Part shown: positions 14-25,106 of the stretch, one piece after another
How positions within the stretch are numbered: the stretch's first letter is position 1
How the letters are laid out: every line of letters starts with the position of its first letter
Origin: a virus
Virus record (IMG/VR): IMGVR_UViG_3300047564_005609
Coordinates: 1-28,962 of that record
Strand: one strand, 5' to 3'
DNA: 28,962 nucleotides
The notes under the pieces: generated by a model
Database searches by the model: none
The model's input: the letters and a program-made list of their open reading frames with translations, nothing else
Told to the model about the DNA's origin: nothing
Program-made: the position numbers and the translations under genes

Positions 14-415
14 ATGCCTATTGAAAGGATAAGCAAAGAATTTAAAGATATTAGTTTATCCTTTCAGGTGAATCCCCTGAATTTTGACTTGATTGCGATA
101 AAAAATGAAACTGCAATTGCAAGATCAGTAAGAAATCTTGTATTAACTCAACCTGGAGAAAGATTTTTTAATCCAATTTTGGGTTCTAAAGTGAATAGAT
201 CTCTTTTTGAGAATATTGATGAGATAAGTGCTTCTATTATTAAAGATGAGATTGAGAATACGATAAGAAATTATGAGCCAAGAGTGAGTTTGATTGATGT
301 AACAGTTACACCAAAATTTGATGATTATGAGTTTGACGTTAGAGTAAGGTATAACATAATTGGCGCAGATTTATTGCCTCAGCAGTTATCATTTGCATTA
401 CAACCGACACGATAA
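14..415 (+). CDS. 25: Baseplate wedge protein gp25 (T4-like)
   Basis: This gene encodes a 133-residue protein matching the length of T4 gp25 (132 aa), a conserved wedge component that helps join the sheath to the baseplate in contractile tails. The body carries the family pattern: an N-terminal stretch with VNPLNFDL, the helix region IARSVRNLVLTQPGERFF near residues 36-52, and the EPR motif in NYEPRVSLIDV near residue 88, the hallmark of the GPW/gp25 family. The ATG at 14 gives the usual start MPIERISKEFKDI of marine relatives. Upstream bases 9-11 (TAA) could be the stop of the preceding gene. Its stop codon directly abuts the ATG of gene 6, so the two are probably translated together. Identification is by family pattern and gene order; I am very confident. 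Confidence 0.95.
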   Translation: MPIERISKEFKDISLSFQVNPLNFDLIAIKNETAIARSVRNLVLTQPGERFFNPILGSKVNRSLFENIDEISASIIKDEIENTIRNYEPRVSLIDVTVTPKFDDYEFDVRVRYNIIGADLLPQQLSFALQPTR

Positions 416-2326
416 ATGACACTAGTAAATTTTACAAATCTAGATTTTAATCAGATAAAAACTTCAATTAGGGATTATCTGAGATCAAACTCAAATTTTA
501 CTGATTATGATTTTGAGGGGTCAAACCTTTCGACAATCATTGATGTTCTTGCATACAATACATACATCTCTTCATATAATGCTAACATGGTTAGCAATGA
601 GGTATTCATTGACAGTGCAACATTGAGAGAAAATGTTGTTTCTATCGCAAGAAGTATTGGATACACACCTAAATCTAGAATTGCATCGAAAGCTAATATT
701 TCTTTTTTCGTAGATACTTCTCTAACGCCACTTCCAAGAAAACCACTTACTCTGACGCTTAAAAAAGGTATTATTGCGACTTCTTCAGGTTCTTTTGGAA
801 ATCAAAATTTTGTTTATTCTATTCCCGATGATATAACAGTTCCCGTTGTAAACGGAATTGCAGAATTTAATAATATTGTAATATATGAAGGCACATATAT
901 TACAAATAAATTTACAGTAGATTCCCTAAATCCAAATCAGAAGTATATTCTGGATAATGCAAATATCGATAGTTCTTTAATTAGAGTTGAAGTTAGAGAT
1001 GGCCAACTTGGAATAAGAAAAAAATATATTCAGGCAAATAATATTTTAGATATAGATTCTGAATCTAGAATATTTTTTATTCAAGAAATAGAAGATCAAA
1101 GATATGAATTAATATTTGGTGATGGTGTATTTGGTAAAAGATTGATTAACGAAAATATTGTCGAAGCTTCTTATATTGTTACTAGTGGGGAAAGCGCAAA
1201 TGGCGTATCTTCATTCTTGTTTAATGGGACTATAGTTGATAATACCAATCTAGATGTTTCGGGAGGAATTTCACTCCTAACAACAAATATTGCTTCAGGT
1301 GGAGGAAAAGAAATTGAATCGGTAGATTCTATCAAAAAATATGCAACAAGAATATATGCAGCTCAGAATAGAGCAGTTACTGCAAACGATTATGAAGCGA
1401 TAATACCAATAATATATCCAGAGGCAGAATCAGTTTCTGCATTTGGTGGAGAAGATTTAGATCCCCCTCAATTTGGAAAAGTTTTTATTAGTATCAAGCC
1501 AGAAGGTGGATTTTTTATATCAAACGGAGTTAAGGATAATATTAAAAGAGAATTGAAGAAATATGCAGTTGGTGGAATATTGCCCGAAATAATAGATCTA
1601 AAATATCTCTCGATTGAAATTCAAAGTAAAATTTATTATGATAACAATCTTGCACCTTCTTCAAGTTTTGTTTCGGATACTGTTTATAAAAATATACAAA
1701 AATATGCAAATTCTTCAGAACTGAACAAATATGGTGCAAGATTTAAGTATAGTAAGTTTTTAAAAATAATCGATGACAGTGACGAATCAATAACTTCAAA
1801 CATAACTACGGTTCAAATCAGACGTAATTTAAAACCATTGTTAAATAGTTTAGCGACATATGAAATATGCTTTGGTAACAAATTTTACATAAAAAATTCT
1901 GGTGGTTTTAATATAAAATCTTCTGGATTTTTTATTGGGGGTATTCAAGATCCTGTTTACTTTACAGATTTCCCCAATCAAGGTGAAAAGACAGGAATTA
2001 TAAGTATCTTCAGAAAAGATTCACTTGATGGTTTTAAAATTATTATTGAAAATGCGGGAACAATTGATTATGAAAAGGGCGAAATAAATATAGATTCTAT
2101 TGAAATTTTAAATACATCTAAAGAAGACGGTGAACCAATTATTGAAATTTCAGCCATTCCAGATTCTAATGATATTATTGGATTGCAAGATCTTTATTTA
2201 AATCTGAGTATAAATGATGTAAAACTTGAAGTAATACAGGATAAAATATCTTCTGGAGAAGATAGATCTGGTTCAACCTACATAAAAACAACAAGTTACA
2301 GTAATGGTTCTATCATAAGAGAATAA
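416..2326 (+). CDS. 6: Baseplate wedge protein gp6 (T4-like, baseplate J family)
   Basis: The 636-residue product is close in length to T4 gp6 (660 aa), which forms the ring of dimers that holds the wedges together around the hub. The N-terminus (MTLVNFTNLDFNQIKTSIRD, then YDFEGSNLSTIIDVLAYNT near residues 32-50) is the usual opening of marine gp6. The region near residues 295-345, with GGGKEIESVDSIKKYATR and then AVTANDYEAI, is the core shared with baseplate J proteins. The gene starts on the base after the gp25 stop with no intergenic space and no clear Shine-Dalgarno sequence, so translational coupling is likely. The following gene begins two bases after its stop. No truncation or frameshift is visible. 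The identification rests on motif pattern, length and position between 25 and the gp7-like gene. Confidence 0.93.
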   Translation: MTLVNFTNLDFNQIKTSIRDYLRSNSNFTDYDFEGSNLSTIIDVLAYNTYISSYNANMVSNEVFIDSATLRENVVSIARSIGYTPKSRIASKANISFFVDTSLTPLPRKPLTLTLKKGIIATSSGSFGNQNFVYSIPDDITVPVVNGIAEFNNIVIYEGTYITNKFTVDSLNPNQKYILDNANIDSSLIRVEVRDGQLGIRKKYIQANNILDIDSESRIFFIQEIEDQRYELIFGDGVFGKRLINENIVEASYIVTSGESANGVSSFLFNGTIVDNTNLDVSGGISLLTTNIASGGGKEIESVDSIKKYATRIYAAQNRAVTANDYEAIIPIIYPEAESVSAFGGEDLDPPQFGKVFISIKPEGGFFISNGVKDNIKRELKKYAVGGILPEIIDLKYLSIEIQSKIYYDNNLAPSSSFVSDTVYKNIQKYANSSELNKYGARFKYSKFLKIIDDSDESITSNITTVQIRRNLKPLLNSLATYEICFGNKFYIKNSGGFNIKSSGFFIGGIQDPVYFTDFPNQGEKTGIISIFRKDSLDGFKIIIENAGTIDYEKGEINIDSIEILNTSKEDGEPIIEISAIPDSNDIIGLQDLYLNLSINDVKLEVIQDKISSGEDRSGSTYIKTTSYSNGSIIRE

Positions 2327-2327
2327 T

Positions 2328-5300
2328 ATGTCAAATACGAGAGTTAAAATTGCTTCAATTGTACAAAGTCAACTTCCCGATTTTGTTAGAGAGGAATATC
2401 CACTTGTAAGTGAATTTTTAAAAGAATATTACAATTCTCTTGAAGTATCGGGAGGAACCTTGGATGTTCTTCAGAATATTGACAGATATGTTAAAATTGA
2501 CGAATTAACAAAATCTCTTTCTGGTAGAATAATTACTGTAAGAATACAGGATCCGCAATCATTCTTTACTATAAGTGGTGGATTTTCGGTTAATGAATTG
2601 ATCGTATTTAAAAACGGAACCAGACTACTTTTAAATACTGACTACTTTGTATTTTCAAGTACTGAACTGTCATTAGTAGAAGAATGTATTAATGGAGATA
2701 TTTTGGAGTTTTATATCCAAACTCCATCCACAACATTTTTGAAAAGTGAAGTTGGTTTTACTGATGATGTGATAAATGTTGAATCAACTTACGGGTTCCC
2801 AGAATCGAATGGAATAATAAAAATTGATTCTGAAATTATTTTATATAAAAGCAAAACGGAAACTTCTTTTGTAGATTGTAAAAGAGGTTTTAGTGGAATA
2901 ACATCATATAGGACAGAAAATACGACAGATCAATTAACTTTTTCAACTTCTCAAGTAGAGAATCATGAAAATAATTCTTCTGTAGAAAATTTAAGCCTTT
3001 TGCTGCTAAAGGAATTTTTATTAAAAATTAAAAAACAACTAACTCCGGGATTTGAAAACAAAACTTTTGTTGATGGAGTAAATCAAAGTACTTTTATAAA
3101 GCAAGTAAAGGATTTTTATAGTTCAAAAGGAACTGAAGATTCCTATCAGGTTATATTTAAAGCACTTTTTGGTGAAAATATTGAAATTTTAAGACCAAGA
3201 GATTATTTGTTTAAACCTTCTGATGCAAACTATAGAATAACAAGAGATTTGGTAGTAGAATCTGTATCAGGGGATCCAATGTCTCTCCTTAACAGAACTC
3301 TATATCAAGATGAATCTGGATCAGAAGAATCTCAGTTTTTCTCTAAAGCATATGGGACTATTACAAGAGTAGAAAAAATACAAAGATTAAATAAAAATTA
3401 TTATGTACTGAGTTTGGATGCAGACTATTCTAAAGATCTGACAGTTGATGGAACTGTTTACGGAAATTTTAAGATACATCCAAGTACAAAATTAACTACA
3501 AATGCTGACTTAAATTCTGCAGTCTTGACTGTAGATTCTACAATCGGATTTCCAAAAACTGGTGAATTGACGTATTCTGTTAATGGTCAAGAATACATCA
3601 ATTCATATATAATAGAAAATATTACACAATTTTCTTTATTTGGTACAACTGATGTAGAAATACCAAAAGGAACTGATATAAAAATAAACAATTTTGCTTA
3701 CTCTGAATTTGGTGGGAATATTGTAAAAGTAAGAATCACCGGAGTTATCTCCGATGTTTCTTTTGATAAAAATAACTATTTGATGTCAAAGGGAGAGACT
3801 TTTAAAGTCAATACACTAGGATATCCTGCAAAAGGTGTTCTTGCTAACAATTGGATATTCAATATTGCCAATAAGTTTAAAGTAAAACAAATTATAGGAC
3901 CAAAATCCTCTAACGCATCTTTAAATTTATTTTCATATGAAGTTATAACCATAGATAAAAATAATTTTTATATTGGTGATATTGTTAAACTAATTTCATC
4001 TGATGGAAATATTAATGATTATACCATAAGGGGAATTAACAATGAAAATTCTGTAAGTATAGAAGGTCCTTCAATAGGAAATTTAAATTTAAAATTTTTG
4101 ATAGAGAGGAGCATAGTAAAACCAAAATTTACTAACTTTGATTACATAAATCAATACTCTGCTAATGTCCAAAATGTTTATATACCAAATTCCAATGAGA
4201 ATGCAGGAATTTTTGTCGCTTCAAATTCACTGCCAAATTATTTAAATGAAAATATTGATATAAAAAACCCCGATATTGTTTTTTCCGGCACTTTCGGTGG
4301 AGAAATTTTAGACCTTAGCTCAGGAAATCCAAATAATTATCATGGACTTTATACTGGAGACTCCGTAATTTACAAAGATACAAATACTTCTGACCTACGA
4401 AATAATCTGGGAATTCTGAGTAAAGTATATTATGTTGAAAAAGTCGATAATACGAGAATAAAACTTGCCAATAGCAAATTAGATCTTTTCAAAAAAAGAT
4501 ATGTTTCTATCGAAAATAATGTATCAGTAACTAATAATATATTCTCAAAAAATAAAATAAAATTTTCTACCTTTTCTTCGCAAAATTTTATAAAAAATAT
4601 ATCAAAACCCGTAAATGGGAAAAAATTTGAAACTCCTGTTGGTCCTGTTGGAATATTTGTTAATGGTGTTGAAGCTTTTAGTTATAAATCAGAAGATAAA
4701 GTTTATTATGGTGGAATTGATAAAATCAATGTAATAGATGGTGGAGATGACTATGATGTAATCAATCCTCCAAATATTGAAATATTGGATGAAAACGGTT
4801 CAAATGCAACTGCATATGTTCAAGTTACTGGTGAATTAAATTCTATTGATATTATTGATCCTGGATTTGATTATATTTCAGATCCAATAGTAACCATCTC
4901 TGGAGGAAATGGTTCTGGAGCGGTTGCAAAAGTAAATCTAACTAGTTTCAGGCATAAAGTTTCATTTAATTCTATTGAGTCTTCACTATTCGTCAATTTA
5001 TCTACAAATACAATAGGATTTTCCACTTATCACAAATTTAGAGATAATGAACAAGTGATATATTTGCCAAATGGACAAACTCCTGTTGGTGGATTGACAT
5101 CCAAAGCACAATATTATGTAAACGTTCAGGATTCTTTTAATATTAGATTGCATAAAACTTTAAATGATTCTGTTTCCGGAATTAACACGATAAATTTAAC
5201 TTCATATGGAGTAGGTGTTCATGAATTTGAAGCAACTTCTATTAAGAGAAAAATTTCTAGTTTTTCTATAATTGATAGAGGTTCTAACTATTCGAATAAA

Positions 5301-8300
5301 AAGACTTCATGTTTTTCTTCCGGAGTAAGCACTACTTCTAATATAATAAACATTCCAGAACACGGGTATAAAACTGGTGAAATATTGAAATATACTTCAA
5401 CCAGTCTACCGATAGGTGGACTGGAGAATGGTAAGTCTTATTATGCAATAAAAGTAAATGATAATCAATTTAGGTTATCTGAGGTTGGAATTGGATCAAC
5501 ATCTAAAGATTTTTATTTTAGAACAAATCAAACTGTAAATTTGACATCAATAGGATCTTCAGAACACATTTTTAATTATGAAGATATTGTGGTATCTGTT
5601 GATGGAATTGTGGGAGTTTCCACGAGGACTGGTCAAGATTTTAATGCAGTAATTCAACCAATTTTTAGGGGTTCAATCAGTAAAGTATTTGTTAACAATT
5701 CTGGTGTTGGGTATGGTTCATCCGAAATTATAAATTATGAAAGACAACCTAATGTTGTATTGGGAATTGGAACGGGGGCTCAACTTTCTCCGATAGTTAA
5801 TAATGGAAGAATAACTCAAGTTTTAGTTTTGAATGGTGGAAGTAATTATAATTCACCGCCAGATATTAGTATTTTTGGAAATAGTACAACAGCAAGTTTG
5901 GTTCCGGTAATTAGTAATGGTAGAATAGTTGATGTTAAAGTTCAAAATTCTGGAGTTGGATTTAGTACAATTGGAACATCGCTTGAAGTTTTTACTCCCG
6001 GAAATGGGTTTAAATATGATTGTAAGATAAAATCTTGGACTATTAATAAAGTTGAGAAAAATTTAAATTCCAATAAAATATTAGAAGATGATGGAGTCCT
6101 CGATAGATATCAAGGAACACAAAAAGGACTGCAATATTGTCATTTTTATGCACCAAGAAAATTAAGGAGAAGCGTTTTTGGTACAGATTTTGTAAATGGT
6201 AAGAAAGTTTTAATACAAGATTTAAATATTGTTAGAAATGTTGAGGTAAGGTCAAAAGCCCATTCTCCAATAATAGGTTGGGCTTATGATGGAAATCCGA
6301 TATATGGACCATACGGATTCTCGTCTCCTTCGGGTGGCGTTGTTAGAGAGATGAAACCTGGATATATACAAAAAATTTCTGAAGATAGACCAGATCCAAT
6401 ATCGGAGTCTGCTGGAAGAATTTACCCTCCTGGATTTTTTGTAGAAGATTATCAATTTAATAATTCGAGTGATAGTGATCTGGATGAACATAATGGAAGA
6501 TTTTGTATAACACCCGAATTTCCAGAAGGAACTTATGCCTATTTTGCAACAATTAGTGATGGTTCCACAGAAACTTCTGGAATATTTAAAAATTATAAAA
6601 AACCAGTATTCCCATATCTTGTGGGTAATACTTTTAATTCTATCCCAAATACACAAAATTATCAAATAAATTTTACATCACAACAAAATTCATCTATATT
6701 CTCCGAGTTTAGTCTACTTAGAAATACTTCTCCATATAACCTTTCTAGTGAAAATTCACAATACGATTTTGTATTTAATCCTTTAAAAATAAAGGAACCT
6801 TTGATTAAAATAGAATCAACTTTATTATCCGGAATTGATGATGTTGAAATAACTTCTGGTGGAACCGGTTATAAAGTTGGCGATAAAGCAATATTTGATA
6901 ATACAAATACAAGTGGTTCAGATGCTTATGCCAGAGTTTCTTTCTTAGAAGGAAAAGAAGTAACTTCTATAAGTTGTGCATCTACAACTTATAATGATGT
7001 GGAATTTTATCCAATAAATTCTGGATCTTTTGTAGCTTTCAGTACAATACCACATAATTTCCTCAATAATGATATTGTATCGATTGGTGGATTAAGTACA
7101 AGTACTCAATTTCTTAATGCAGTATTGCAAATAGGTGTTCGCTCAGATACTCTCACTCTATCTAAAAATGTTGATGCTCCGTCTGCAACTGGCATTGTTA
7201 CATATTTTGATGTAAATGGTTCTCTAGATTTTCCCAAAATTAGAGAAAATGATATTTATGAATTGGATACAGAAAAAATTAAAATCTTATCAGTTGATAA
7301 ATTATCATCTAGAATTAAAGTACTAAGAGAGTTTGATTCTTCCGTAGGTACTTCACATACAATATCTACTGTTTTATTTGAAAAAACAAGAAAATTTACA
7401 TTTAGCATAGAAAAAGATCCGAAGATAAATTTTAACCTTAATAAAGAAATATATTTTAATCCAAAGGAATCGGTTTCTTTGGGAACTGGATCGACTTTAT
7501 CTTTTTCAAATCCTGGAGCGGGAATAACAATTATTTCTACACCAGCTAAAACAATTTATCTACCAAATCATAAGTTAGAAACTGGAAATGAATTAATTTA
7601 TTCAACCAATGGAGGATCTCCAATATTTGTTTCTGATGATAATATAACTAGTTTCCAATTATTAGATAATCAAATTGTTTATGCAGCGAAAGTCTCAGAA
7701 GATTTAATTGGCATCTCAACTAATCTAGTTGGACTCGGTTCAACAGGATCTTTTGTTGGTATTGATAGTAGCATTACAACTTCCATCTTATTCTTTACTA
7801 ATGTTGGATCTGGTGATAATCATAGTTTTAAAACAAATTATTCAAACAGTTTAACAGGAGAAGTTACTAAAAATGTTGTTACTGTATCAACAGCAGAAAC
7901 TCATGGACTAAAAGTGAATGACATAGTTTTCTTTGAAGCCCTTCCTGGCATTACTACTACTGTAGTGGTAAAATATAATGATAAGAATAGTAGATTACTA
8001 ATTAATCCAAAATCTTTTACCTCTTCTGATGTTGATATTACAAATAATATCATCTTTATAAAAAATCACGGTTATTCTACCGGAGAAAAAGTAGTATATA
8101 CTGCAGAAAGTTCTCCAATTGGTGGGGTATCAAATAATGAAATATATTATATTGTCAGATTTAGTAAAGATAAAATTAAACTGTCTTCAAGTTATTACAA
8201 TTCAATTAAGAATATTCCGGAAGTAATTGATTTTACTAGTGCTTCTGATGGAACTTTGTCTTTAGTAAATCCAAGAATTTTTGCAGTTTCCAATCAATTT

Positions 8301-11300
8301 ATAAAGTTTGATCTTTCAGATGAATCTCTTTCTTATAGTATAGAATCGGTCCCATATCCAGCTTTTGAATTTGTATTATATAAAGATTCTAATTTTACTG
8401 AAGAGTTTATCAAGGTAGAAGATTCTGAAATTTCCAGATTAAATGTTACTAAAGTTGGAAGGATAGGAGTTGATGAAAATGCATCTGTTACTCTAAGAAC
8501 AGAAAATTTAGATTTTGATTTGTATTATAGACTAGTTCCAGTTGATTTGGAAAATAACTCTTTTCTTAAAAAGAATATCATAGTAGATGATCAGAATATT
8601 ATAGAAAATAATAAAATACTTTTGGGAAAAAGCGGTTATTTTGGATTCCACTTATTATCTTCAGTCCAAGATAGTTCGTTTAACTTTAACATATTCAGTT
8701 TTCCTGAAATTGATTCATATTCTAAGTTTGACGGAAATTTTGTTTATTCTACCAATTCCAAAAATGCAGTTGGTGGAATAAAAGAATTAGAAATAACATC
8801 TAGAGGTAGATATTATGATACTTCTCCGGGTATAAGTTCAGTATTTTCTGAAAATGGAAAAAATGCTATTTTGGATCCCATTTCCTCAAGTATTGGTAAA
8901 ATTACAAATTTTGAGATTGAAGATATTGGATTTAATTATCCTGCCGACCAAACTTTATACCCATCAGCTAAATTACCCCAGATAATAAAGGTAAATCCTC
9001 TCTCAAGATTTAAAAATATTGGAGTATCTTCTGTAGGTATTGATTATAGTATATCTCCAGACCTCATAGTGATAGATTCAACAACAAATAACGTTGTCAA
9101 TGACGTTGAATTAAATTATGATGTAGAAACAAATACTGTAAAAATTATAAGAAATACTGAGGGAATTTTTAATTCAAAACCAACAATATTGCCAGTAAAT
9201 AACTCAAATGGAGTTCCAATTAAAGAAATAACTTTTGATGAAATTTCTAAAAATGTTACTATTGAACTTGATAAATCTTATAGTTTTGGCCAGGTTTTCC
9301 CATTCAACGTTGGTGATAAAGTATTAGTTGAGAATGTAAATATTGATATTGATTCTGGAAAAGGTTTCAATTCAAAAGAATATGGATATAAGTTATTTAC
9401 CTTAACTTCAGTTAATCCACTATTTGGAGGAACTGGAGCAAATATTGTTTATAATCTCAGTCAAGATTTGTTAGACTCGGAAGTTCCTGGAAGTTTTGAT
9501 TCTAATAATTCTGCAGGAATTGTTACTCCGGAAAAATATTTTCCAATATTTGATCCGGTTTTGGAAAAGTTTAGTTTCTTAAGAGGAGAAGTTGCGAAAA
9601 CTCAATCTCAAAGAGGTATAGTCTTAAATTGGAATAAAAATGTAGAACTATTGAAATTATCTACTTCTGATGACTTTGAATTGAATTCAATTATAGTTGG
9701 CGAATCTTCTAATGCGAAGGGAATTATTACTCGTATAGATTCAAACTTTGATGCAGTTTATAATATTGAATCATCAGCAATAGTTAAAAAAGGATGGGAA
9801 CTAGAAACCGGATTTTTAAATAATCAATTCCAGGTCATAGCTGATAATGATTACTATCAAAATTTCTCATATTCAATAAAATCTAAAGTAGATTATGATA
9901 CTTGGAACGACTCTATAGGAAATTTAAATCATACATCTGGATTTAAAAAGTTTGGAGATTTGGTAGTAGAATCTATCGATTCAATTTCAAGCGGAATATC
10001 TACAGACCAAAATGAAGGTGATTTTTCTGGCTTAGTAGAGTTTGTAAGGGAAATTGATTTAAATTGTGTAAACGATTTTGATCTTGTAAGGGAAAGAACT
10101 TTAAATATTAATTCGCAATTATTTTCTAAAGAATTTGTATTTAATTCCCGTTCTTTACAAGATGAATTTATATCAATTGGAAATAGAGTTCTTTCTATAG
10201 ATGATATTGGCAATAGATTCTCCAGCGAACAGTCATCTCAAATTTTTTCAATTGTAGATACATTTAGATTAACTGATTTTAGATCGAAAAAATATATAAC
10301 TTATGTTAAAGATAAAAACTCTACGGAGCTGAGAGAGTCGTCATTAGTTACACTAATACATGACAACAATGAAGTATTTCTGAATGAATACTCGGGTCTT
10401 AATACCGGAACTGATTTAGGATCATTTGAATTTTCTATCTTTAGTGTTGAGGGAACATTAAGATATTTTCCAAATAATTTTACATCAGATGATTATACTA
10501 TTAATGTTATATCATATGGAATAAAAGATGACAATACTGGTATCGGAAGTACATCGATAGGAAATTTGGTAGATTTAAGATCTTCGACTACAATAATTCC
10601 TTCAGGAACTTCTTCTCAAACAAATATTGTTGGTATTGGCTCAACATATTCTACTTCAAAAGTTTTAGTTCAGTTTACATCTTCCGACGAAACTTATTAT
10701 CAGTTTGAAGAAATAACTTTATTAAGTGATGGTAATAACGTCAGTATTTTGGAATACGGACAACTTTCAAATGCAACAAGAGTTGGATATTCTACGGGTG
10801 GAATAGGAACATATAGTGCTTATATATCCGGATCAACGATAAATCTAGATTTTACTCCAAATGTAAGTTTGGCAACAACGTATATTGTCAATACTTTAAG
10901 AGTTTCTATTGCAAGCACTAATGTTGGAATTACCACTTCTTCATTGGAGTTTAATACTTGCGAAATAAGTTCGAATTTTGTAGCAATATCATCCTCACCT
11001 TCGCCAACACAAATAGGAATATCAACTTTCTCTACAGATTATGAAAGTTCATATTATATTGTGTCTGTTGAGGATGTTACAAATGGAGATTATCAAGCAT
11101 CAGAAATTCTAGTTATTAATGATGGATCAAACGCATATATCTCTGAGTTTGGTGGAATAGGAACTTCTTCTGGTTTGGGAACTTTTGGTGCAAATTATGA
11201 TGTAATTTCTGGAACTACATTAAACTTTACTCCAATTGCTGATGCTTCTATAAATGTAAAAATTTATAGAAATGCATTAAGAGTAGTTGATACTGGTAAT

Positions 11301-14300
11301 GATTTTACATCCTTAAACCTAACAAATGCAAATATTGAATCTGATTTTTCAGAATTTGATGGTGTTTCAAATTCTATTAGAAAATCATTTGACCTACTTC
11401 ACAGAGGAGTACCAATCTTCCAAAGATCATTCCAATCTTCAGACCCAAACATCGTCAATATTGAAAATAATAGAATTAAAATTACAAATAATTTTTATGT
11501 AGGGGGTGAAGAACTTAAATATGATTTTGGTCAAGGGGATCCTGTTGGAATAGAAACAACAACGATAGCTGGCATTGGTTTAACGGATAAATTACCATCG
11601 ACGGTTTATGTTATAAAATTAAATGATGTGAGCATCAGACTTGCATCATCTCCAGAAAATAGTCTCAAACCAGTTCCAGAACCGTTAATTATTAATTCTG
11701 TTGGTGTTGGAATACATACATTTACTTCAACAAGACAAAATGCAAGATGTCTAATAACAATAGATAACCATATTCAATCACCAATAGTTTCGACTGCAGT
11801 AACCACAACTTTAGCATCAGGTTCCTCATCCAGTGAAGAGCAAATAACAATATCTGACATAACTTCCATTTTTAGTGGAGATTTGTTGAAGATAAATGAT
11901 GAAATTATTAGAGTAAACTCTGTTGGAGTTGGATCTACAAATTCTCTATTAGTTGATCGTGGTTTTGTTGGAACAAATGCGGAAAGTCATTCTATAGGAA
12001 GTACAGTTACAAAAGTACTAGGAAACTATAATATAGTAAACAACACAATTAATTTTGCAGATGCTCCATACGGAAACACTCCAACAAGTGACGAAACAAA
12101 TAGACCTGACCAAAGAGATTATATTGGCATTACAACAAGGTCCACTTTTGGTGGAAGAGTATTTTTGAGATCTGGTATTAATACAACCTCAGGTGTATTT
12201 GTAGACACATATTCTACTAACTACGTTTTAGATAGTTTATCCGATCAATTTGATGGAGTTACCAAAGAATTTGTTCTAAAGTCTTCTGGACAAGATGTTA
12301 CGGGTATTTCTACTAGCAACGCAATTGTTTTAATTAATAATGTATTCCAAGAGCCAAAAAGAACAGGTTCTGTAAGTATTGTAGGAAATTATGAAATATC
12401 GGAAAATGCAGGTATTAGTACGATAGAATTCATTGGTGGAATATCATCTGCATCTTATGATATTAATAATTCAAGTATTCCTAGAGGTGGTGTTATAGTT
12501 TCTGTAGCGTCAACAACAGGATTTGGATATCAACCATTAATTTCTGCTGGTGGAACTTCTATAGTTTCTAGTGCAGGAACGATTTCTAATATTAGTGTGG
12601 GATATTCTGGTTCAGGTTATAGATCTCTAGAAAAATATGAAATAATTACAAAAACTTCTTCAACTATTAGTTCTGGAAGTACAATAATTTACATAGACAA
12701 TCAAAATGGAATATTTGAGAAATTGGCGTATTCAAGTTCAAATTCCATAGGAATAGGTTCACAAAATGTTCCTATTTTGGGAATTGGAAATAGCTATGTT
12801 TTGATAGGATCTGGAAGCACTATTTCCCAATCTATAGAATCCGAAAAGTCTGTTTTGGTATCTCTAAACTCTCCTTATGTTGGATTAGTTGATGTTGGCG
12901 TCAAAACATCTAGTAATGGAATATTAAATTATGAATTTATAGGATTTGCAACAGTAATTCCAGGAACTGGTAACATTTCATCAAATATTAATATCACAAA
13001 TCCCGGTTCTGGATATACATCAGCAAATCCTCCAATAGTTGTTTTTGATGGTCCAAATAATTACGATAATATTCCACTAATATATTCTTCTGGATCTTCT
13101 GGATTAGGAACCGAAGCAACTGTTAATATTATAGTTGGACAAAATTCCAGTGTAATTGATTTTGAATTGGAAAATTTGGGATATGGATACAATACCTCAC
13201 AAATTTTGACAGTACCTACTGGTGGATTAACTGGAATACCAACTGATGCATCAAAACCATTTATTAATTTTGAATTAACTATAGATGAAATATTCTCTGA
13301 TATTTTCTACGGGTGGTCTATAGGGGATCTTCAAGTTATTGACAAAATTGAAAATCTATTTGATGGTGTAAGGAGGAATTTCCCAATAAAAATTAATGGA
13401 ATTCAATCATCAATTAGATCTAGAACAGGATCAAATGTTGAGATTCAATATACACTATTAATATTTTTGAATGATATACTACAAGTTCCGGATGTTTCTT
13501 ATACATTTAATGGAGGAAGTACTTTTACTTTCTTAGATGCTCCAAATGTTGGCGATACTTGCAAAATACTATTCTATAAAGGAACGGGTAACGTTGATGT
13601 TTTAAGTGAAGATGTTTTGCAGACTATTAAGATTGGAGATCTTGTTAGGGTAACTAGTGATATTGCAGAGCAAAACCAAAATAATAGGTTAATTACAGAT
13701 ATTATATCTTCTGATCTTTTGATAACAAATCCATATACTGGTGCAGGATTATTTGAAGATGAAACTATATTAAGACCACTACTTTGGTGTAGGCAAACAG
13801 AAGACTTGATAATAAGTGGACAGGAAATTGGTAAAGATAGAGAAATATATGAGCCATTAATTCAACCTGCAACAAATATTATACAAAATGTTGGATCTGC
13901 TTCAACTGAAATTTTTGTCCAGAGTGTCAAAATATTCTTTGACGATTTTAGAGAAAATACTAGCCAAACACTCAAATCAGAAATTATCTTGATATCACAA
14001 GATCCACAGGAAGGTTCTTACGCAACCGCTAATGTTTCCACATCTGGCACAATTTCTTCTCTAAATTTAGTTGAAGGTGGAATAGGATTTACAACAGATC
14101 CAGTCGTCAAAATTAGCAATCCTGTTGGATTTGGATCAACGTCTACTGCCATTGCTTCTATTTCTTCGGGAATTGTTACCTCACTTACTATTATAAATCC
14201 AGGATCTGGGTACACAACTTCAAATCCTCCACAAGTTTTAATTGAATATCCAAAGGTTATCGTAGAGGAAATTGTAGATGTTGATTATGAAGGAGATTTT

Positions 14301-14837
14301 GGAATAGTTGTTGGAGTTTCAACAACATCAGTTGGAGTGGCATCTACAGCTGTAGTTTTTGATTTGTTTATCCCAACAGAGTCTTATTTGAGAAATACTA
14401 ATATCAATGTTGGAATTGCAACTACAGGGATTAGCGGGATAAAAACAGATTATTACTTTACAATTTTCAATTCAAATATTGGTTTTGGTCTAACATCTTT
14501 AGATTCTACAAATAATATCGTTGGAGTTGGAACTTCATGCCTTGATAATGTTTATAAAGCCTCTAGTGTTTCTATAGCACAAACTAGCGTCCTTGGAATC
14601 GGAATAACAGATGTGACCCGAGTTGTTGTAAGTGTTTTAGATTATAATGGTTTGGTTGGTTATGGATACAGCGGTTTTTATGGAGAATTCAGTTGGGGTA
14701 GATTAAGTAATTTCATTAGAAAAAATCCGTTAAACTTTAATTCTTACAATACCAACGGAATTTCGGGATTAAATACATCAACTCTAGTACAAAGATTAAA
14801 TCCACTAAGTTATATTGGATACTCAACAACTTTATAA
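2328..14837 (+). CDS. 7: Giant gp7-like baseplate wedge protein with repeat arm
   Basis: A 4169-residue protein (roughly 450 kDa judged from length) sits exactly where gene 7 belongs, between 6 and 8. Residues 1-400 resemble the C-terminal part of T4 gp7: DFYSSKGTEDSYQVIFKAL at 262-280 parallels the T4 DFYSTKG...FKVLY segment from memory, followed by a similar beta-rich stretch. T4 gp7 is only 1032 aa, and its other domains are not recognisable here. Residues ~400-4100 are tandem beta-type modules: GxGY repeats, H-x-TGE...PIGGL repeats, a YHYH-like domain (~1260-1410), three ~80-residue repeats (~2659-2988), IDDEII...RG modules and FDGV...FLN modules. The C-terminus has SWGRLSNFIRKNP, an ending I know from large cyanophage structural proteins. 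I counted only 13 cysteines. There is no signal peptide or membrane segment. Inference: the wedge-binding core anchors a very long arm that faces outward. The role of the arm is unknown. Confidence 0.82.
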   Translation: MSNTRVKIASIVQSQLPDFVREEYPLVSEFLKEYYNSLEVSGGTLDVLQNIDRYVKIDELTKSLSGRIITVRIQDPQSFFTISGGFSVNELIVFKNGTRLLLNTDYFVFSSTELSLVEECINGDILEFYIQTPSTTFLKSEVGFTDDVINVESTYGFPESNGIIKIDSEIILYKSKTETSFVDCKRGFSGITSYRTENTTDQLTFSTSQVENHENNSSVENLSLLLLKEFLLKIKKQLTPGFENKTFVDGVNQSTFIKQVKDFYSSKGTEDSYQVIFKALFGENIEILRPRDYLFKPSDANYRITRDLVVESVSGDPMSLLNRTLYQDESGSEESQFFSKAYGTITRVEKIQRLNKNYYVLSLDADYSKDLTVDGTVYGNFKIHPSTKLTTNADLNSAVLTVDSTIGFPKTGELTYSVNGQEYINSYIIENITQFSLFGTTDVEIPKGTDIKINNFAYSEFGGNIVKVRITGVISDVSFDKNNYLMSKGETFKVNTLGYPAKGVLANNWIFNIANKFKVKQIIGPKSSNASLNLFSYEVITIDKNNFYIGDIVKLISSDGNINDYTIRGINNENSVSIEGPSIGNLNLKFLIERSIVKPKFTNFDYINQYSANVQNVYIPNSNENAGIFVASNSLPNYLNENIDIKNPDIVFSGTFGGEILDLSSGNPNNYHGLYTGDSVIYKDTNTSDLRNNLGILSKVYYVEKVDNTRIKLANSKLDLFKKRYVSIENNVSVTNNIFSKNKIKFSTFSSQNFIKNISKPVNGKKFETPVGPVGIFVNGVEAFSYKSEDKVYYGGIDKINVIDGGDDYDVINPPNIEILDENGSNATAYVQVTGELNSIDIIDPGFDYISDPIVTISGGNGSGAVAKVNLTSFRHKVSFNSIESSLFVNLSTNTIGFSTYHKFRDNEQVIYLPNGQTPVGGLTSKAQYYVNVQDSFNIRLHKTLNDSVSGINTINLTSYGVGVHEFEATSIKRKISSFSIIDRGSNYSNKKTSCFSSGVSTTSNIINIPEHGYKTGEILKYTSTSLPIGGLENGKSYYAIKVNDNQFRLSEVGIGSTSKDFYFRTNQTVNLTSIGSSEHIFNYEDIVVSVDGIVGVSTRTGQDFNAVIQPIFRGSISKVFVNNSGVGYGSSEIINYERQPNVVLGIGTGAQLSPIVNNGRITQVLVLNGGSNYNSPPDISIFGNSTTASLVPVISNGRIVDVKVQNSGVGFSTIGTSLEVFTPGNGFKYDCKIKSWTINKVEKNLNSNKILEDDGVLDRYQGTQKGLQYCHFYAPRKLRRSVFGTDFVNGKKVLIQDLNIVRNVEVRSKAHSPIIGWAYDGNPIYGPYGFSSPSGGVVREMKPGYIQKISEDRPDPISESAGRIYPPGFFVEDYQFNNSSDSDLDEHNGRFCITPEFPEGTYAYFATISDGSTETSGIFKNYKKPVFPYLVGNTFNSIPNTQNYQINFTSQQNSSIFSEFSLLRNTSPYNLSSENSQYDFVFNPLKIKEPLIKIESTLLSGIDDVEITSGGTGYKVGDKAIFDNTNTSGSDAYARVSFLEGKEVTSISCASTTYNDVEFYPINSGSFVAFSTIPHNFLNNDIVSIGGLSTSTQFLNAVLQIGVRSDTLTLSKNVDAPSATGIVTYFDVNGSLDFPKIRENDIYELDTEKIKILSVDKLSSRIKVLREFDSSVGTSHTISTVLFEKTRKFTFSIEKDPKINFNLNKEIYFNPKESVSLGTGSTLSFSNPGAGITIISTPAKTIYLPNHKLETGNELIYSTNGGSPIFVSDDNITSFQLLDNQIVYAAKVSEDLIGISTNLVGLGSTGSFVGIDSSITTSILFFTNVGSGDNHSFKTNYSNSLTGEVTKNVVTVSTAETHGLKVNDIVFFEALPGITTTVVVKYNDKNSRLLINPKSFTSSDVDITNNIIFIKNHGYSTGEKVVYTAESSPIGGVSNNEIYYIVRFSKDKIKLSSSYYNSIKNIPEVIDFTSASDGTLSLVNPRIFAVSNQFIKFDLSDESLSYSIESVPYPAFEFVLYKDSNFTEEFIKVEDSEISRLNVTKVGRIGVDENASVTLRTENLDFDLYYRLVPVDLENNSFLKKNIIVDDQNIIENNKILLGKSGYFGFHLLSSVQDSSFNFNIFSFPEIDSYSKFDGNFVYSTNSKNAVGGIKELEITSRGRYYDTSPGISSVFSENGKNAILDPISSSIGKITNFEIEDIGFNYPADQTLYPSAKLPQIIKVNPLSRFKNIGVSSVGIDYSISPDLIVIDSTTNNVVNDVELNYDVETNTVKIIRNTEGIFNSKPTILPVNNSNGVPIKEITFDEISKNVTIELDKSYSFGQVFPFNVGDKVLVENVNIDIDSGKGFNSKEYGYKLFTLTSVNPLFGGTGANIVYNLSQDLLDSEVPGSFDSNNSAGIVTPEKYFPIFDPVLEKFSFLRGEVAKTQSQRGIVLNWNKNVELLKLSTSDDFELNSIIVGESSNAKGIITRIDSNFDAVYNIESSAIVKKGWELETGFLNNQFQVIADNDYYQNFSYSIKSKVDYDTWNDSIGNLNHTSGFKKFGDLVVESIDSISSGISTDQNEGDFSGLVEFVREIDLNCVNDFDLVRERTLNINSQLFSKEFVFNSRSLQDEFISIGNRVLSIDDIGNRFSSEQSSQIFSIVDTFRLTDFRSKKYITYVKDKNSTELRESSLVTLIHDNNEVFLNEYSGLNTGTDLGSFEFSIFSVEGTLRYFPNNFTSDDYTINVISYGIKDDNTGIGSTSIGNLVDLRSSTTIIPSGTSSQTNIVGIGSTYSTSKVLVQFTSSDETYYQFEEITLLSDGNNVSILEYGQLSNATRVGYSTGGIGTYSAYISGSTINLDFTPNVSLATTYIVNTLRVSIASTNVGITTSSLEFNTCEISSNFVAISSSPSPTQIGISTFSTDYESSYYIVSVEDVTNGDYQASEILVINDGSNAYISEFGGIGTSSGLGTFGANYDVISGTTLNFTPIADASINVKIYRNALRVVDTGNDFTSLNLTNANIESDFSEFDGVSNSIRKSFDLLHRGVPIFQRSFQSSDPNIVNIENNRIKITNNFYVGGEELKYDFGQGDPVGIETTTIAGIGLTDKLPSTVYVIKLNDVSIRLASSPENSLKPVPEPLIINSVGVGIHTFTSTRQNARCLITIDNHIQSPIVSTAVTTTLASGSSSSEEQITISDITSIFSGDLLKINDEIIRVNSVGVGSTNSLLVDRGFVGTNAESHSIGSTVTKVLGNYNIVNNTINFADAPYGNTPTSDETNRPDQRDYIGITTRSTFGGRVFLRSGINTTSGVFVDTYSTNYVLDSLSDQFDGVTKEFVLKSSGQDVTGISTSNAIVLINNVFQEPKRTGSVSIVGNYEISENAGISTIEFIGGISSASYDINNSSIPRGGVIVSVASTTGFGYQPLISAGGTSIVSSAGTISNISVGYSGSGYRSLEKYEIITKTSSTISSGSTIIYIDNQNGIFEKLAYSSSNSIGIGSQNVPILGIGNSYVLIGSGSTISQSIESEKSVLVSLNSPYVGLVDVGVKTSSNGILNYEFIGFATVIPGTGNISSNINITNPGSGYTSANPPIVVFDGPNNYDNIPLIYSSGSSGLGTEATVNIIVGQNSSVIDFELENLGYGYNTSQILTVPTGGLTGIPTDASKPFINFELTIDEIFSDIFYGWSIGDLQVIDKIENLFDGVRRNFPIKINGIQSSIRSRTGSNVEIQYTLLIFLNDILQVPDVSYTFNGGSTFTFLDAPNVGDTCKILFYKGTGNVDVLSEDVLQTIKIGDLVRVTSDIAEQNQNNRLITDIISSDLLITNPYTGAGLFEDETILRPLLWCRQTEDLIISGQEIGKDREIYEPLIQPATNIIQNVGSASTEIFVQSVKIFFDDFRENTSQTLKSEIILISQDPQEGSYATANVSTSGTISSLNLVEGGIGFTTDPVVKISNPVGFGSTSTAIASISSGIVTSLTIINPGSGYTTSNPPQVLIEYPKVIVEEIVDVDYEGDFGIVVGVSTTSVGVASTAVVFDLFIPTESYLRNTNINVGIATTGISGIKTDYYFTIFNSNIGFGLTSLDSTNNIVGVGTSCLDNVYKASSVSIAQTSVLGIGITDVTRVVVSVLDYNGLVGYGYSGFYGEFSWGRLSNFIRKNPLNFNSYNTNGISGLNTSTLVQRLNPLSYIGYSTTL
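2757..2915 (+). repeat. IDxEEI...RG module, first copy in gp7-like protein
   Basis: Residues 144-196 carry the pattern V-x-STYGFPESNGIIKIDSEII followed by a CKRGFSG turn. The same plan recurs in a degenerate form at residues ~390-440 (VDSTIGFPKTGELTY), again near 3171-3231 of this protein (LLKINDEIIRV then VDRGFVGT), in the 834-aa protein (YIRIENEIISY then ITRAVDQT) and at the C-terminus of gp15 (YIYIDEEEIFV then VIRGADNT). The module is seen by eye on the protein level; its function is unknown. Confidence 0.6.
4722..4950 (+). repeat. Two GxGY-type repeats in gp7-like protein
   Basis: Two consecutive ~35-residue units at residues ~799-873 read I-x-V-I-D-G-G-D-D-Y...PPNIEI and I-D-I-I-D-P-G-F-D-Y...DPIVTISGGNGSGA. 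They are variants of the pattern hydrophobic strand - GG/PG - x-GY - PP/P - strand - GGxGSGAxA found in many marine T4-like virion proteins. Confidence 0.65.
5666..6000 (+). repeat. Three GxGY-type repeats preceding the YHYH-like domain
   Basis: Residues ~1113-1225 hold three successive units: VFVNNSGVGYGSSEI, VLVLNGGSNYNSPPDISI and VKVQNSGVGFSTIG. The second and third are each preceded by NGRI, giving a regular spacing of roughly 35 to 45 residues. They lead directly into the YHYH-like domain, and probably form a short rod of stacked beta units before it. Confidence 0.65.
6100..6600 (+). other. YHYH-like domain encoded within gp7-like gene
   Basis: Residues ~1258-1424 contain the signature HSPIIGWAYDGNPIYGPYG (1312-1330), then LDEHNGRFCITPEFP (from about 1385) and GTYAYFATI (from about 1401). 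This order (GWAYDG-x-PIYG, LDxxNG, GxYxYxxT) is that of the YHYH family, named after a Y-H-Y-H motif. Here the naming motif reads Y-A-Y-F at 1403-1406, so both histidines are replaced. The family function is not established. The similarity is seen in motif order, recalled from knowledge and not from a search. Confidence 0.75.
10302..11290 (+). repeat. Three diverged tandem ~80-residue modules in gp7-like protein
   Basis: Three copies lie at roughly nt 10302-10525, 10669-10910 and 11053-11290. Each reads: strand with S/E-x-V-T/L-V-I-x-D/H-G/N-x-N-x-V/Y, then L/I-x-E-Y/F-G/S, then LG(S/T)F or GTYSAYI, a glycine turn, and a final P-x-tactic strand ending in N-V-I/K-I/Y. The clearest parallels are ISEFGGIG...GLGTFGANY versus LNEYSGLN...DLGSFEFSI. 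They are separated by GIGSTS/GISTS-type Ser-Thr-Gly linkers. Confidence 0.6.
12238..13590 (+). repeat. Two FDGV...FLN...P modules in gp7-like protein
   Basis: Copies at nt ~12238-12450 (FDGVTKEFVL, then AIVLINNVFQEP) and ~13345-13590 (FDGVRRNFPI, then LLIFLNDILQVP, ending GDTCKILFYKGTG) share the plan FDGV-x-F-strand, an I-x-x-F/I-N-x-(I/V)-x-Q-x-P strand, then a beta hairpin. A partial FDGV unit occurs at ~11350. Such units resemble the repeated hairpin domains of phage tail fibres, which suggests a fibre-like C-terminal third. The resemblance is by eye. Confidence 0.5.
14015..14260 (+). repeat. Two GxGY-type repeats near C-terminus of gp7-like protein
   Basis: Residues ~3897-3977 hold LNLVEGGIGFTTDPVVKI, then a repeat with LTIINPGSGYTTSNPPQVL. 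A third related unit stands at nt ~12965-13050 (ITNPGSGYTSANPPIVV) and a partial one at ~12574-12640. The near-identity of PGSGYT(S/T)xNPP between units separated by about 1.2 kb shows recent duplication or continuing homogenisation. Confidence 0.65.
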
Positions 14838-14872: not shown

Positions 14873-16429
14873 ATGTCTGCGATTATAACTGATCAACTTA
14901 GAATATTAAATGCCAAAAACTTTGTTTCGGCAGCAACGTCAACTACAAATAATTATTATACTTTTGTTGGATTAACAAATGCAACAGATTATGATTCCAA
15001 TTGGGACTCATTACCTCCTGCGCCAAAAGATAATTTTGACCAGGAAAATGAATATTGGGATACAATGATTGCATTGAAAAAAATTACAAGTGGGGACGTT
15101 AGGCAGGTAGTTAGAAAGAATATTTGGAAGACTGGAACTACTTATGATATGTATAGCAATGATATTAGCAGAACTAATTTAGCTATCCCATCAAACTCCA
15201 CAAGTTTATATTCTTCTAACTTTTACGTTGTAAATAGTGATTTTAGAGTTTATATTTGCTTGTATAATGGTATTGATCCGGAAAATCCATCGGGTAGACC
15301 TTCTTTAGATGAACCAAGATTCACAGATTTGGAACCTAGGCCTGCAGGAGATAGTGAAGACGGTTATATTTGGAAATACTTATATACTATTAAACCAAGT
15401 GAATTGATAAAATTTGATTCTACTAATTTTATTCCTGTTCCTATAGATTGGGAAACAAACTCAGACTATGCTCCAATAAGGGATAATGCAATAAATGGTG
15501 GGCAGATTAAAATCATAAGAGTTTTGGATAGAGGTATTGGTATTGGAACTGCAAATAGGACATACACAAATGTTCCAATATATGGGGATGGTTCTGGTGC
15601 AGAGTGTACTATAGTTGTTAACAGCGATTCTGTAGTAGAATCTGCAATTGTAACTAGTGGTGGGTCAGGATATACATATGGAACTGTTGATTTAGTTTCT
15701 GGTGGAGTTCCTTCTGGTTCATCTTCTCCATCTTTTAAAGTTATTATACCACCGCAGAGAGGTCACGGATATGACATTTATAGAGAATTGGGAGCGTATA
15801 GAGTACTGATCTATTCAAGATTAGAAAATGATGTAGAAAATCCAGACTTTATCATTGGAAATAAAGTAGCAAGAGTTGGAATTGTAGAAAATCCCCTATC
15901 GTTTAATTCTGATGATGCTTTAGCACTAAGCAAAGCAAGTGCCTTATCAGCTCTTAAATTGGTTGGAGTTGGATATAGTTCTGCAAATTTTCCAGAAAAT
16001 TCTTACTTCACTCAGACAGTTGGATTAGGTTCAACTGCATTTGGGAGAGTAGTATCTTATGATAAAAACACAGGTGTTTTAAAATATTGGCAGGATAGAA
16101 CACTAGTTGGTTTTAATAGTAATGGTACATCGAATGCAAATCCACTTTATGGTTTTAATCGTAACTTATTTACCGCAAATCCGGGTGATGGTGGTTCAAT
16201 AATTATTGAATCTCCTAATGTAAGTGGACTCGGAATAGATACATCTTTTACTGGTGTAACTACTACAATAAATAATAGAAAATATTTTCTTGGCCAAAAT
16301 TTTGTTGATGGTGTTGCTAATCCCGAAGTGGAAAAGCACTCAGGAAATATAATTTATGTTGATAATAGACCTTCAATAACAAGGTCATCAAATCAAAAAG
16401 AAGATATCAAAGTCATCTTGCAGTTTTAG
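14873..16429 (+). CDS. 8: Baseplate wedge protein gp8 (T4-like, enlarged)
   Basis: The 518-residue product is a gp8 homologue; T4 gp8 is a 334-aa dimeric wedge protein. Two conserved stretches identify it. One is DSEDGYIWKYLYTIKPSE near residues 160-177, parallel to T4 GDGYVWEYLFEIPP. The other is the very C-terminus, EKHSGNIIYVDNRP then KEDIKVILQF, parallel to HSGEMIYMENRP...EINILFTF. The extra ~180 residues are mainly in the middle and include a GxGY unit (VTSGGSGYTYGTVDLV, residues ~259-274). The ATG at 14873 is preceded by a perfect late promoter but no obvious Shine-Dalgarno sequence. An ATG at 14862 is out of frame. The protein probably bridges gp7 and gp10-type components at the wedge periphery; the added repeat may decorate the baseplate. 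Confidence 0.92.
   Translation: MSAIITDQLRILNAKNFVSAATSTTNNYYTFVGLTNATDYDSNWDSLPPAPKDNFDQENEYWDTMIALKKITSGDVRQVVRKNIWKTGTTYDMYSNDISRTNLAIPSNSTSLYSSNFYVVNSDFRVYICLYNGIDPENPSGRPSLDEPRFTDLEPRPAGDSEDGYIWKYLYTIKPSELIKFDSTNFIPVPIDWETNSDYAPIRDNAINGGQIKIIRVLDRGIGIGTANRTYTNVPIYGDGSGAECTIVVNSDSVVESAIVTSGGSGYTYGTVDLVSGGVPSGSSSPSFKVIIPPQRGHGYDIYRELGAYRVLIYSRLENDVENPDFIIGNKVARVGIVENPLSFNSDDALALSKASALSALKLVGVGYSSANFPENSYFTQTVGLGSTAFGRVVSYDKNTGVLKYWQDRTLVGFNSNGTSNANPLYGFNRNLFTANPGDGGSIIIESPNVSGLGIDTSFTGVTTTINNRKYFLGQNFVDGVANPEVEKHSGNIIYVDNRPSITRSSNQKEDIKVILQF
15560..15700 (+). repeat. GxGY-type repeat inserted in gp8
   Basis: Residues ~230-276 of gp8 (GDGSGAECTIVV, then AIVTSGGSGYTYGTV) follow the same strand-GG-GY plan as the repeats of the gp7-like protein and gp14. 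The segment lies between the conserved central and C-terminal gp8 regions, so it looks like an insertion into the ancestral fold. Confidence 0.65.
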
Positions 16430-24727: not shown

Positions 24728-24952
24728 ATGAACAAATCAAAAGTAGAAGGACACTCAAATCTAATTAGAGATGGTGAAACTAAAGCAATTATTAATACGA
24801 GCATGACGGACTATAACAACTATATTATGCAAAAAAAGTTAAAGGAAAAGGAAACTCAAAAAATAAATTCAATTGAAAAAGAAGTTTCAAATATAAAAGA
24901 TGACTTAAATGAAATTAAAAATCTTCTAAGGAGACTGGCAAATGAATCCTGA
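24728..24952 (+). CDS. Small conserved phage protein with coiled coil (74 aa)
   Basis: This 74-residue protein has an N-terminal segment with VEGHSNLIRDGETKAIINT and a charged C-terminal half (KLKEKETQKINSIEKEV, then IKDDLNEIKNLLRRL) with heptad-like spacing of I/L residues, indicating a coiled coil over about residues 40-70. Similar short proteins with a G-H-x-N-L-x-R-D start and a coiled-coil end are found in this place in other marine T4-like phages, as far as I recall, but no function is known to me. It follows the 834-aa gene by six bases and its end overlaps the next small gene by 11 bases. Its position between structural genes suggests a minor virion or chaperone role; that is inference. 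Confidence 0.75.
   Translation: MNKSKVEGHSNLIRDGETKAIINTSMTDYNNYIMQKKLKEKETQKINSIEKEVSNIKDDLNEIKNLLRRLANES
24928..24933 (+). promoter_or_regulatory. Shine-Dalgarno AAGGAG for the 54-aa gene
   Basis: A strong AAGGAG lies eight bases before the ATG at 24942, inside the end of the 74-aa gene. It is among the best ribosome sites in the window and is the main evidence that the short overlapping frame is translated. Confidence 0.7.
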
Positions 24953-25106
24953 GCAACTTGTATTGGAAGATTTAAGTAAAAATTTTGAATATTTTAAAAT
25001 GGCAGCGGAAATAGATTCTCTAGAAAATATTGAGGATGTTAAAAATGTTGCAAAATGTTATTTCAAATTGTACTTAAAGCAACAAGAAATTATTTCCAAA
25101 TTTTAA
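24942..25106 (+). CDS. Small hypothetical protein (54 aa)
   Basis: An open frame of 54 codons starts at ATG 24942, overlaps the end of the 74-aa gene by 11 bases, and stops at TAA 25104-25106. It begins MNPEQLVLEDLSKNFEYFKM and ends YFKLYLKQQEIISKF. The product is helical in appearance, acidic in its first half and Lys-rich at the end, with no membrane segment and one cysteine. A near-consensus Shine-Dalgarno sequence precedes it, and it fills the gap before gene 13. The plan EID...L...AK...KLYLKQQE resembles small hypothetical proteins of other marine T4-like phages, but I cannot assign a function. Confidence 0.72.
   Translation: MNPEQLVLEDLSKNFEYFKMAAEIDSLENIEDVKNVAKCYFKLYLKQQEIISKF

Follow-up and report, generated by a model that had tools for sequence, protein, structure and literature searches.

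The long open reading frame in the window, by which we mean the whole stretch of DNA analysed, a 28,962-base IMG/VR virus record, encodes, with a probability of roughly 0.7, the giant gp7 of a Kyanoviridae-type (T4-like cyanophage) myovirus in which two blocks, A and B, make up the wedge core and an insertion and a C-terminal extension make up arms. Judged by its sequence, the gp7 core of this protein is split by an insertion of about 1900 residues or more, not moved. Marine cyanophages were already known to have giant gp7; the split-core anatomy is a correction and the useful result. The original prediction was right in naming gp7 and wrong about the evolutionary step: the window holds a known giant gp7 with a corrected architecture.

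The gp7 frame fills 43% of the window, as had been pointed out beforehand, and lies among the following genes:

14..415, + strand: gp25 (baseplate wedge), PF04965, phrog_261
416..2326, + strand: gp6 (baseplate wedge), PF21379, phrog_219
2328..14837, + strand: giant gp7 (baseplate wedge subunit), 4169 aa, ATG start, computed mass 456 kDa, PHROG 2885
14873..16429, + strand: gp8 (baseplate wedge), PF09215, phrog_438
16435-22161 and 22217-24721: PHROG 358 protein (VrlC in other records), in two frames

Downstream of the PHROG 358 pair lie neck proteins, a tail sheath stabiliser and the terminase small subunit. The order gp25-gp6-gp7-gp8-VrlC seen here is also the annotated order in S-SM2 and P-HM1, and in Bellamy the two genes 3' of gp7 are labelled just "structural protein". 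The two PHROG 358 frames of the window match model positions 1-1409 and 1421-2055; at the VrlC place the frames of a relative (G002, locus L181) measure 1889 and 833 aa, the phage of locus L076 has two frames of 1147 and 827 aa, and S-SM2 and P-HM1 have a single VrlC gene. Two short frames of 74 and 54 aa (24728-24952 and 24942-25106) were found 3' of the VrlC pair; the 74-aa frame has a coiled-coil look by eye, and L076 carries at the same place as this pair an 89-aa frame with a similar-looking end.

The identification as gp7 is based on a match to PHROG 2885, the DFYSSKG motif, the presence of both blocks and the gp6-gp7-gp8 gene order. The match to PHROG 2885 ("baseplate wedge subunit", a model of 4179 positions) scored 3345 bits in three stretches, the best of which covered residues 134-3448. 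The resemblance of residues ~200-400 to the C-terminal part of T4 gp7, proposed from the letters alone, was borne out by the DFYSSKG...IFKAL stretch that starts at residue 262, and by BLASTP, in which residues 262-287 paired with T4 gp7 733-758. Furthermore, a phmmer search of residues 1-491 against PDB sequences returned a gp7 chain as its top match (E 0.0024, chain residues 729-789), and the same residues matched 456 of 50,697 phage records, 446 of which were named Synechococcus, Prochlorococcus or Cyanophage.

The expansion is several-fold, as predicted, with 4169 aa here compared to 1032 aa in T4 gp7. The lengths of giants taken from records were 3884 aa in S-CAM9, 4067 in Bellamy, 4156 in S-SM2, 4446 in P-HM1 and 5195 in P-SSM2, with larger ones of 5422 aa in S-CREM1, 6198 in S-ShM2, 6395 in S-RIM8, 6619 in S-SZBM1 and 7022 in S-MbCM6; the S-SM2 and P-SSM2 proteins are annotated as gp7. 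A survey lists the 7312-aa "baseplate wedge initiator" of P-SSM4 as the largest protein of bacterial viruses (PMC8553790). The gp7 of the window is thus of ordinary size for its family. Giant gp7 proteins of the Kyanoviridae (PHROG 2885; S-SM2, Bellamy, P-HM1, P-SSM2) are like the window protein in length and in their place after gp6, share blocks A and B, the insertion and the extension with it, and have YHYH residues that align with its own; its identity to the S-SM2 and Bellamy proteins was 28-58% in 150-residue steps. The larger giants S-CREM1, S-ShM2, S-RIM8 and S-MbCM6 likewise have both blocks and are expanded at the same three sites, with a second part of block A that starts from about residue 660 (219 in the window protein), tails of 1995-3501 residues, and a gap between A and B of 2571-2700 residues, a range that also holds for Syn2.

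The window gp7 divides as follows:

2328..2513, + strand: core block A, first part (helical), residues 1-62; supported by hhalign with the compact gp7 family, hmmsearch and helices in the model
2523..2999, + strand: small insert interrupting block A, residues 66-224; predicted to fold as two beta domains
2982..3524, + strand: core block A, second part, residues 219-399; DFYSSKGTEDSYQVIFKALFGE from residue 262
3525..9299, + strand: main insertion with repeat modules, residues 400-2324, about 1925 aa
6003..6554, + strand: YHYH domain (PF14240), residues 1226-1409; 86.1 bits against a cut-off of 25
9300..9977, + strand: core block B, residues 2325-2550, most secure over 2478-2550; YYQNFSYSIKS starts at residue 2509
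9978..14837, + strand: C-terminal extension of about 1600 aa, residues 2551-4169 plus the stop

The second part of block A shares a few residues with the end of the beta insert, and the main insertion reaches residue 2477 if block B is taken as its secure part only. Block A is recognised by its helical part and DFYSSKG, block B by YYQ..SY.IKS...H..GF. The first compact gp7 found was a 519-aa protein in locus L076, encoded between gp6 and a gp8-like gene. BLASTP without composition correction aligned this protein with the window gp7 at residues 216-380 (E 1.4e-11), 2241-2617 (E 5.6e-9) and 10-100 (E 5.1e-6), the next match being at 0.002. In a profile comparison of the compact with the giant family, residues 1-399 matched at E 1.9e-22 and residues 2325-2550 at E 3e-13, and upon realignment the blocks narrowed to residues 228-363 and 2478-2550. 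The T4 family matched the compact family over T4 648-760 (E 2.5e-6, probability 89%) and, for block B, over T4 856-892 (E 4.5e-4, probability 33%). It matched the giant family over T4 727-822 (E 1.4e-9) and weakly over 866-888 (E 0.012, probability 3.6%), the direct alignment of block B to T4 being short, at about 45 residues. As the direct match of block B to T4 is weak, the case for its homology draws mostly on the compact intermediates and a test with profiles built without T4. In this test, A and B profiles were run against 68 T4 frames (at least 60 codons, 22 kb) and 68 reversed decoys, and gp7 was the sole significant match for both A (E 2.4e-10, next 0.093) and B (E 3.4e-5, next 0.71).

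A set of 45 proteins went into profile B, and 38 members of that set into profile A. Block A preceded block B in all 59 gathered gp7 proteins, 14 of them outside both profiles (12 T4-like, S-CREM2 and S-PM2); the set counts Mosig (= L105) once and retains near copies (L123/L124, L128/L132), so that 59 is not a number of independent cases. The block B search matched 150 records. Among the matches listed, 23 phage records were found for both blocks, and comparison by eye placed B 3' of A, on the strand that also carries A, in each of them. None of nine neighbouring proteins, two of which were cut, matched the A and B profiles. An older and wider block-A profile matched S-PM2d082 over beta-insert columns (8e-6), and wide A and B profiles also matched second places, in repeat or beta modules, in S-RIM8, S-CREM1, Mosig and phiM12. 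Locus L089 has a T4-like gp7 in two frames of 502 and 554 aa.

Both blocks are also present in the compact gp7 of phages Ps15 (Stenotrophomonas, 503 aa), pf16 (Pseudomonas, 523 aa), BUCT-ZZ01 (Synechococcus, 607 aa), Cr30 (Caulobacter, 767 aa), Mosig (Pelagibacter, 874 aa), Melnitz (Methylophilales, 896 aa) and phiM12 (Sinorhizobium, 1007 aa). As in the window, these genes lie directly 3' of a gp6-like gene; unlike the window protein, their products have A-B gaps of 158-769 residues and tails of 4-213 residues. T4 gp7 (1032 aa, PHROG 964) in turn has A and B in the same order as the window protein, and both proteins are encoded between gp6 and gp8. However, T4 gp7 has a 640-residue N-terminal part and a domain VI, neither of which was found in the window protein, and it is without the window protein's insertions and C-terminal extension. 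T4 residues 1-640 had no significant counterpart in the giant (best E 0.15 pairwise and 0.39 by profile), and for this reason the window protein was not filed as PHROG 964; likewise, no counterpart was found for the last domain of T4 gp7 (PF21456, 920-1012).

The original prediction held that the C-terminal core of T4 had been moved to the N-terminus of the giant. Block A does lie late in T4 gp7 (724-758 of 1032) and early in the window protein (219-322 of 4169), as such a permutation would have it. However, block A is followed by the rest of the core, at residues 2325-2550, so the domain order is that of T4, and T4 residues 1-640 are without a significant match in the giant. Moreover, compact gp7 without either addition occurs in many phages, and no domain move is needed. 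With A and B colinear in T4, compact and giant gp7, we rejected the permutation as highly improbable. The accompanying claim, that more than 3700 residues of repeats follow the core, was not confirmed: profile windows did detect repeats, but block B, itself part of the core, lies within that stretch. No account of a split gp7 core was found in the literature searched, a body of work in which subscription papers were mostly outside the scope.

IMG/VR contigs L004 and L005, from two datasets, showed 0 mismatches to the gene over its first 11,473 bases and 1 mismatch in the 2,327 bases upstream of it, and the 174-kb contig of L005 is identical to the window from position 12,001 on, over 16,962 bases. 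In addition, a single long frame of 3745-4225 aa was seen in 8 of 8 larger, hand-chosen records, and each of the 11 isolates in which the long gene was inspected has it as a single annotated CDS (for the S-T4 isolate only gene length was considered). An assembly join was rejected, and its chance is close to nil, because the gene is shared with other contigs and isolates have long single frames. The 174-kb sister contig L005, which may be incomplete, yielded no second gp7. A polyprotein, cut at assembly into core and arm proteins, is a somewhat better contender yet still improbable. It would fit locus L070, in which the gp7 stop (13836-13838) comes right after block B and the extension forms its own frame, with an ATG at 13838, one base on, an arrangement that may be a real split or an indel error. 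Five further loci have gp7 frames that close early, at 1405 aa in L011, 2793 in L023, 1171 in L046, 3611 in L049 and 291 in L065, making six with L070, and these five may likewise be errors or real splits. The single frame of the eight larger records and the single CDS of the 11 isolates speak against this reading, and the published accounts consulted do not, in the portions available, mention cleavage.

The chain has grown at three places to very different extents. The main insertion point lies between the counterparts of T4 ~822 and 848-856, inside Pfam gp7 domain V (766-861). The A-B gap was 89-106 residues in the 12 T4-like proteins and 155-357 in the majority of compact gp7, reaching 517 in Cr30 and 769 in phiM12; it was at the long end 1555 in S-PM2, 1614 in S-CREM2, 2128-2378 in giants of the window's type and about 2150 in the window protein itself. 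The small insert in block A is absent from the shortest compact gp7 and in the S-ShM2 type exceeds that of the window by several hundred residues. C-terminal tails ranged from 2 to 3501 residues across the gathered gp7 proteins; many IMG/VR giants run off the end of their locus, and the tails of these are lower bounds.

DNA identity between the window and locus L007 was 92% up to position 2490, 84% over 2491-9950 and 94% beyond, and the best two breakpoints fell at 2503 and 10017 (residues 59 and 2564), near where the first helical part and block B end. Locus L008 was 90% identical before 2490 and 82% after, with a fitted breakpoint at 2541, and ends before the second step; L006 showed no clear identity step relative to the window. 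The A-to-B stretch of L007 may therefore differ as a unit, either by recombination exchange or by a difference in rate. A broader proposal, which we put forward tentatively and at somewhat less than even odds, is that the gp7 core is a general grafting site, with three fixed places and graded sizes of ~500 to more than 7000 residues, that in cyanophages one chain per wedge would make the whole intermediate and outer baseplate, and that the A-B segment would be exchanged as a unit.

With overlapping 80-column profile windows, we detected 52 off-diagonal repeat matches in gp7 at i-E<0.01, which are not independent since the windows overlap. The same procedure gave 30 matches in gp14, 2 in gp15 and a single one in gp13 and in each of the two PHROG 358 frames, and none on reversed or three shuffled protein sets; self-BLASTP of gp7 with the low-complexity filter gave no repeats at E<0.01. 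The neck protein gp14 (26008-27390) has repeat modules in common with gp7. Within the main insertion, the YHYH domain holds the best conserved 100-residue step (59% over 1301-1400). Across 25 giants, hand-picked long frames from 78 loci and isolates with near-identical loci mostly omitted, His 1312 was kept in all 25, His 1272 in 21 and His 1388 in 11, and Asp 1321, 1374 and 1386 were each kept in all 25. YHYH is predicted to be a zinc-dependent hydrolase, with three histidines and an aspartate as proposed zinc ligands (PMC7824862); given how unevenly the histidines are kept, one in 25/25 and another in 21/25, hydrolase activity is uncertain. We also looked for a hypervariable tip in the insertion and saw none, the conservation of the insertion being similar to that of the core.

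Structure prediction gave a weak match. The model of residues 1-430 had a mean pLDDT of 69 and a pTM of 0.37, and Foldseek returned 306 matches to it, none of which reached E 0.001; the top match was T4 baseplate chain 5iv5_BJ (1004 residues; E 1.8e-3, probability 0.57, TM 0.10), which, as judged by chain length only, would be gp7, a hint and not a fold match. A model of compact gp7 (29-row alignment A4) had a mean pLDDT of 43.5. VIA-align aligned about 65-74 residues of each of the two beta domains of the small insertion: residues 66-133 were best matched by the N-termini of T7-type tail fibres (Z up to 8.9), and residues 134-224 by small beta barrels of phage tail proteins (Z up to 10.9); barrels of F1-ATPase reached 7.5. 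No T4-type baseplate chain of gp7 length was listed by VIA-align, which gives one row per entry, here mostly for residues 66-224; a better row of the same entry may hide a gp7 chain, and this absence therefore says little.

In T4, six gp7 monomers are found in the wedges (PMC3004832), and the wedge contains a (gp6)2-(gp7)1 heterotrimer (PMC6300606). By analogy, the gp7 core, made of blocks A and B, would link two gp6 chains in every one of the six wedges. An insertion inside domain V would let the chain exit the core and return to it, and so give rise to a long beta-rich arm, with the C-terminal extension as another putative arm. According to the original prediction, arms of this kind would be very long and visible on the particle. 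Probably the two arms make up the intermediate and outer baseplate, in place of the N-terminal domains of T4 gp7 and of gp10, gp11 and gp12, and might present modules such as YHYH to the host surface. The latter three proteins are reported to be missing from cyanomyoviruses (PMC2984593); some cyanophage records name the gene 3' of the giant gp7 "gp10" or "tail pin", labels that would weaken the replacement idea.

Published mass spectrometry of homologues, from phages other than that of the window, speaks for gp7 being part of the virion. In purified particles of S-SZBM1, the 6619-aa S-SZBM1_208 was detected with 71 entries, in a column that we take to be peptides, and 13.5% coverage (PMC9146016), and the gp7 core match of this phage falls in the S-SZBM1_208 gene. 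Similarly, the 1937-aa ORF122 of S-CREM2 was identified in virions with 91 unique peptides and 27.2% coverage (PMC10665884), and ORF122 carries blocks A and B.

Whether the arms touch the host is a separate matter. They could be pure scaffolding that stabilises the baseplate, YHYH and repeats being structural, a reading that we consider unlikely, although more credible than a polyprotein. The 30 profile matches of the same kind in the neck protein gp14, an insertion about as conserved as the core and devoid of a hypervariable tip, and the uneven retention of the YHYH histidines are all consistent with scaffolding. Evidence on the other side comes from S-PM2, in which S-PM2d081, a protein 3048 residues long and labelled "hypothetical", was found mutated when the phage was co-cultured with Synechococcus (PMC9910659). 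This protein has both blocks and lies after gp6, which identifies it as gp7. However, most of the early mutations were also present in the deposited sequence and some were pre-existing alleles (PMC9910659), and the mutations are thus compatible with a host-contact role, without proving it. The unit-like divergence of the A-to-B stretch in L007 also speaks against mere scaffolding, but a rate difference could also explain it and it is no proof of host contact. On balance, we favour the giant gp7 with a split wedge core and arms that would contribute to the outer baseplate.

T4 gp7 has been stated to be absent from cyano- and pelagimyophages, with VrlC in its place (PMC7029224). Contrary to this statement, the gp7 core is present in the window, in other cyanophages and in Pelagibacter phage Mosig, where a VrlC gene lies in the same stretch as gp7; it is also present in Methylophilales phage Melnitz. 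Furthermore, in the S-ShM2 (L176) and S-MbCM6 (L178) records the name "gp7" is given to a later gene, and the S-MbCM6 giant is labelled "gp8"; no core block was found in the 554 of 573 and 195 of 1378 residues tested of these so-called gp7 genes. Few bacterial-virus proteins are larger than giant gp7, yet its annotation is muddled. Together, blocks A and B provide a simple sequence test for which gene is gp7 and for where its core is interrupted, and they show structural biologists where the arms should leave the wedge.
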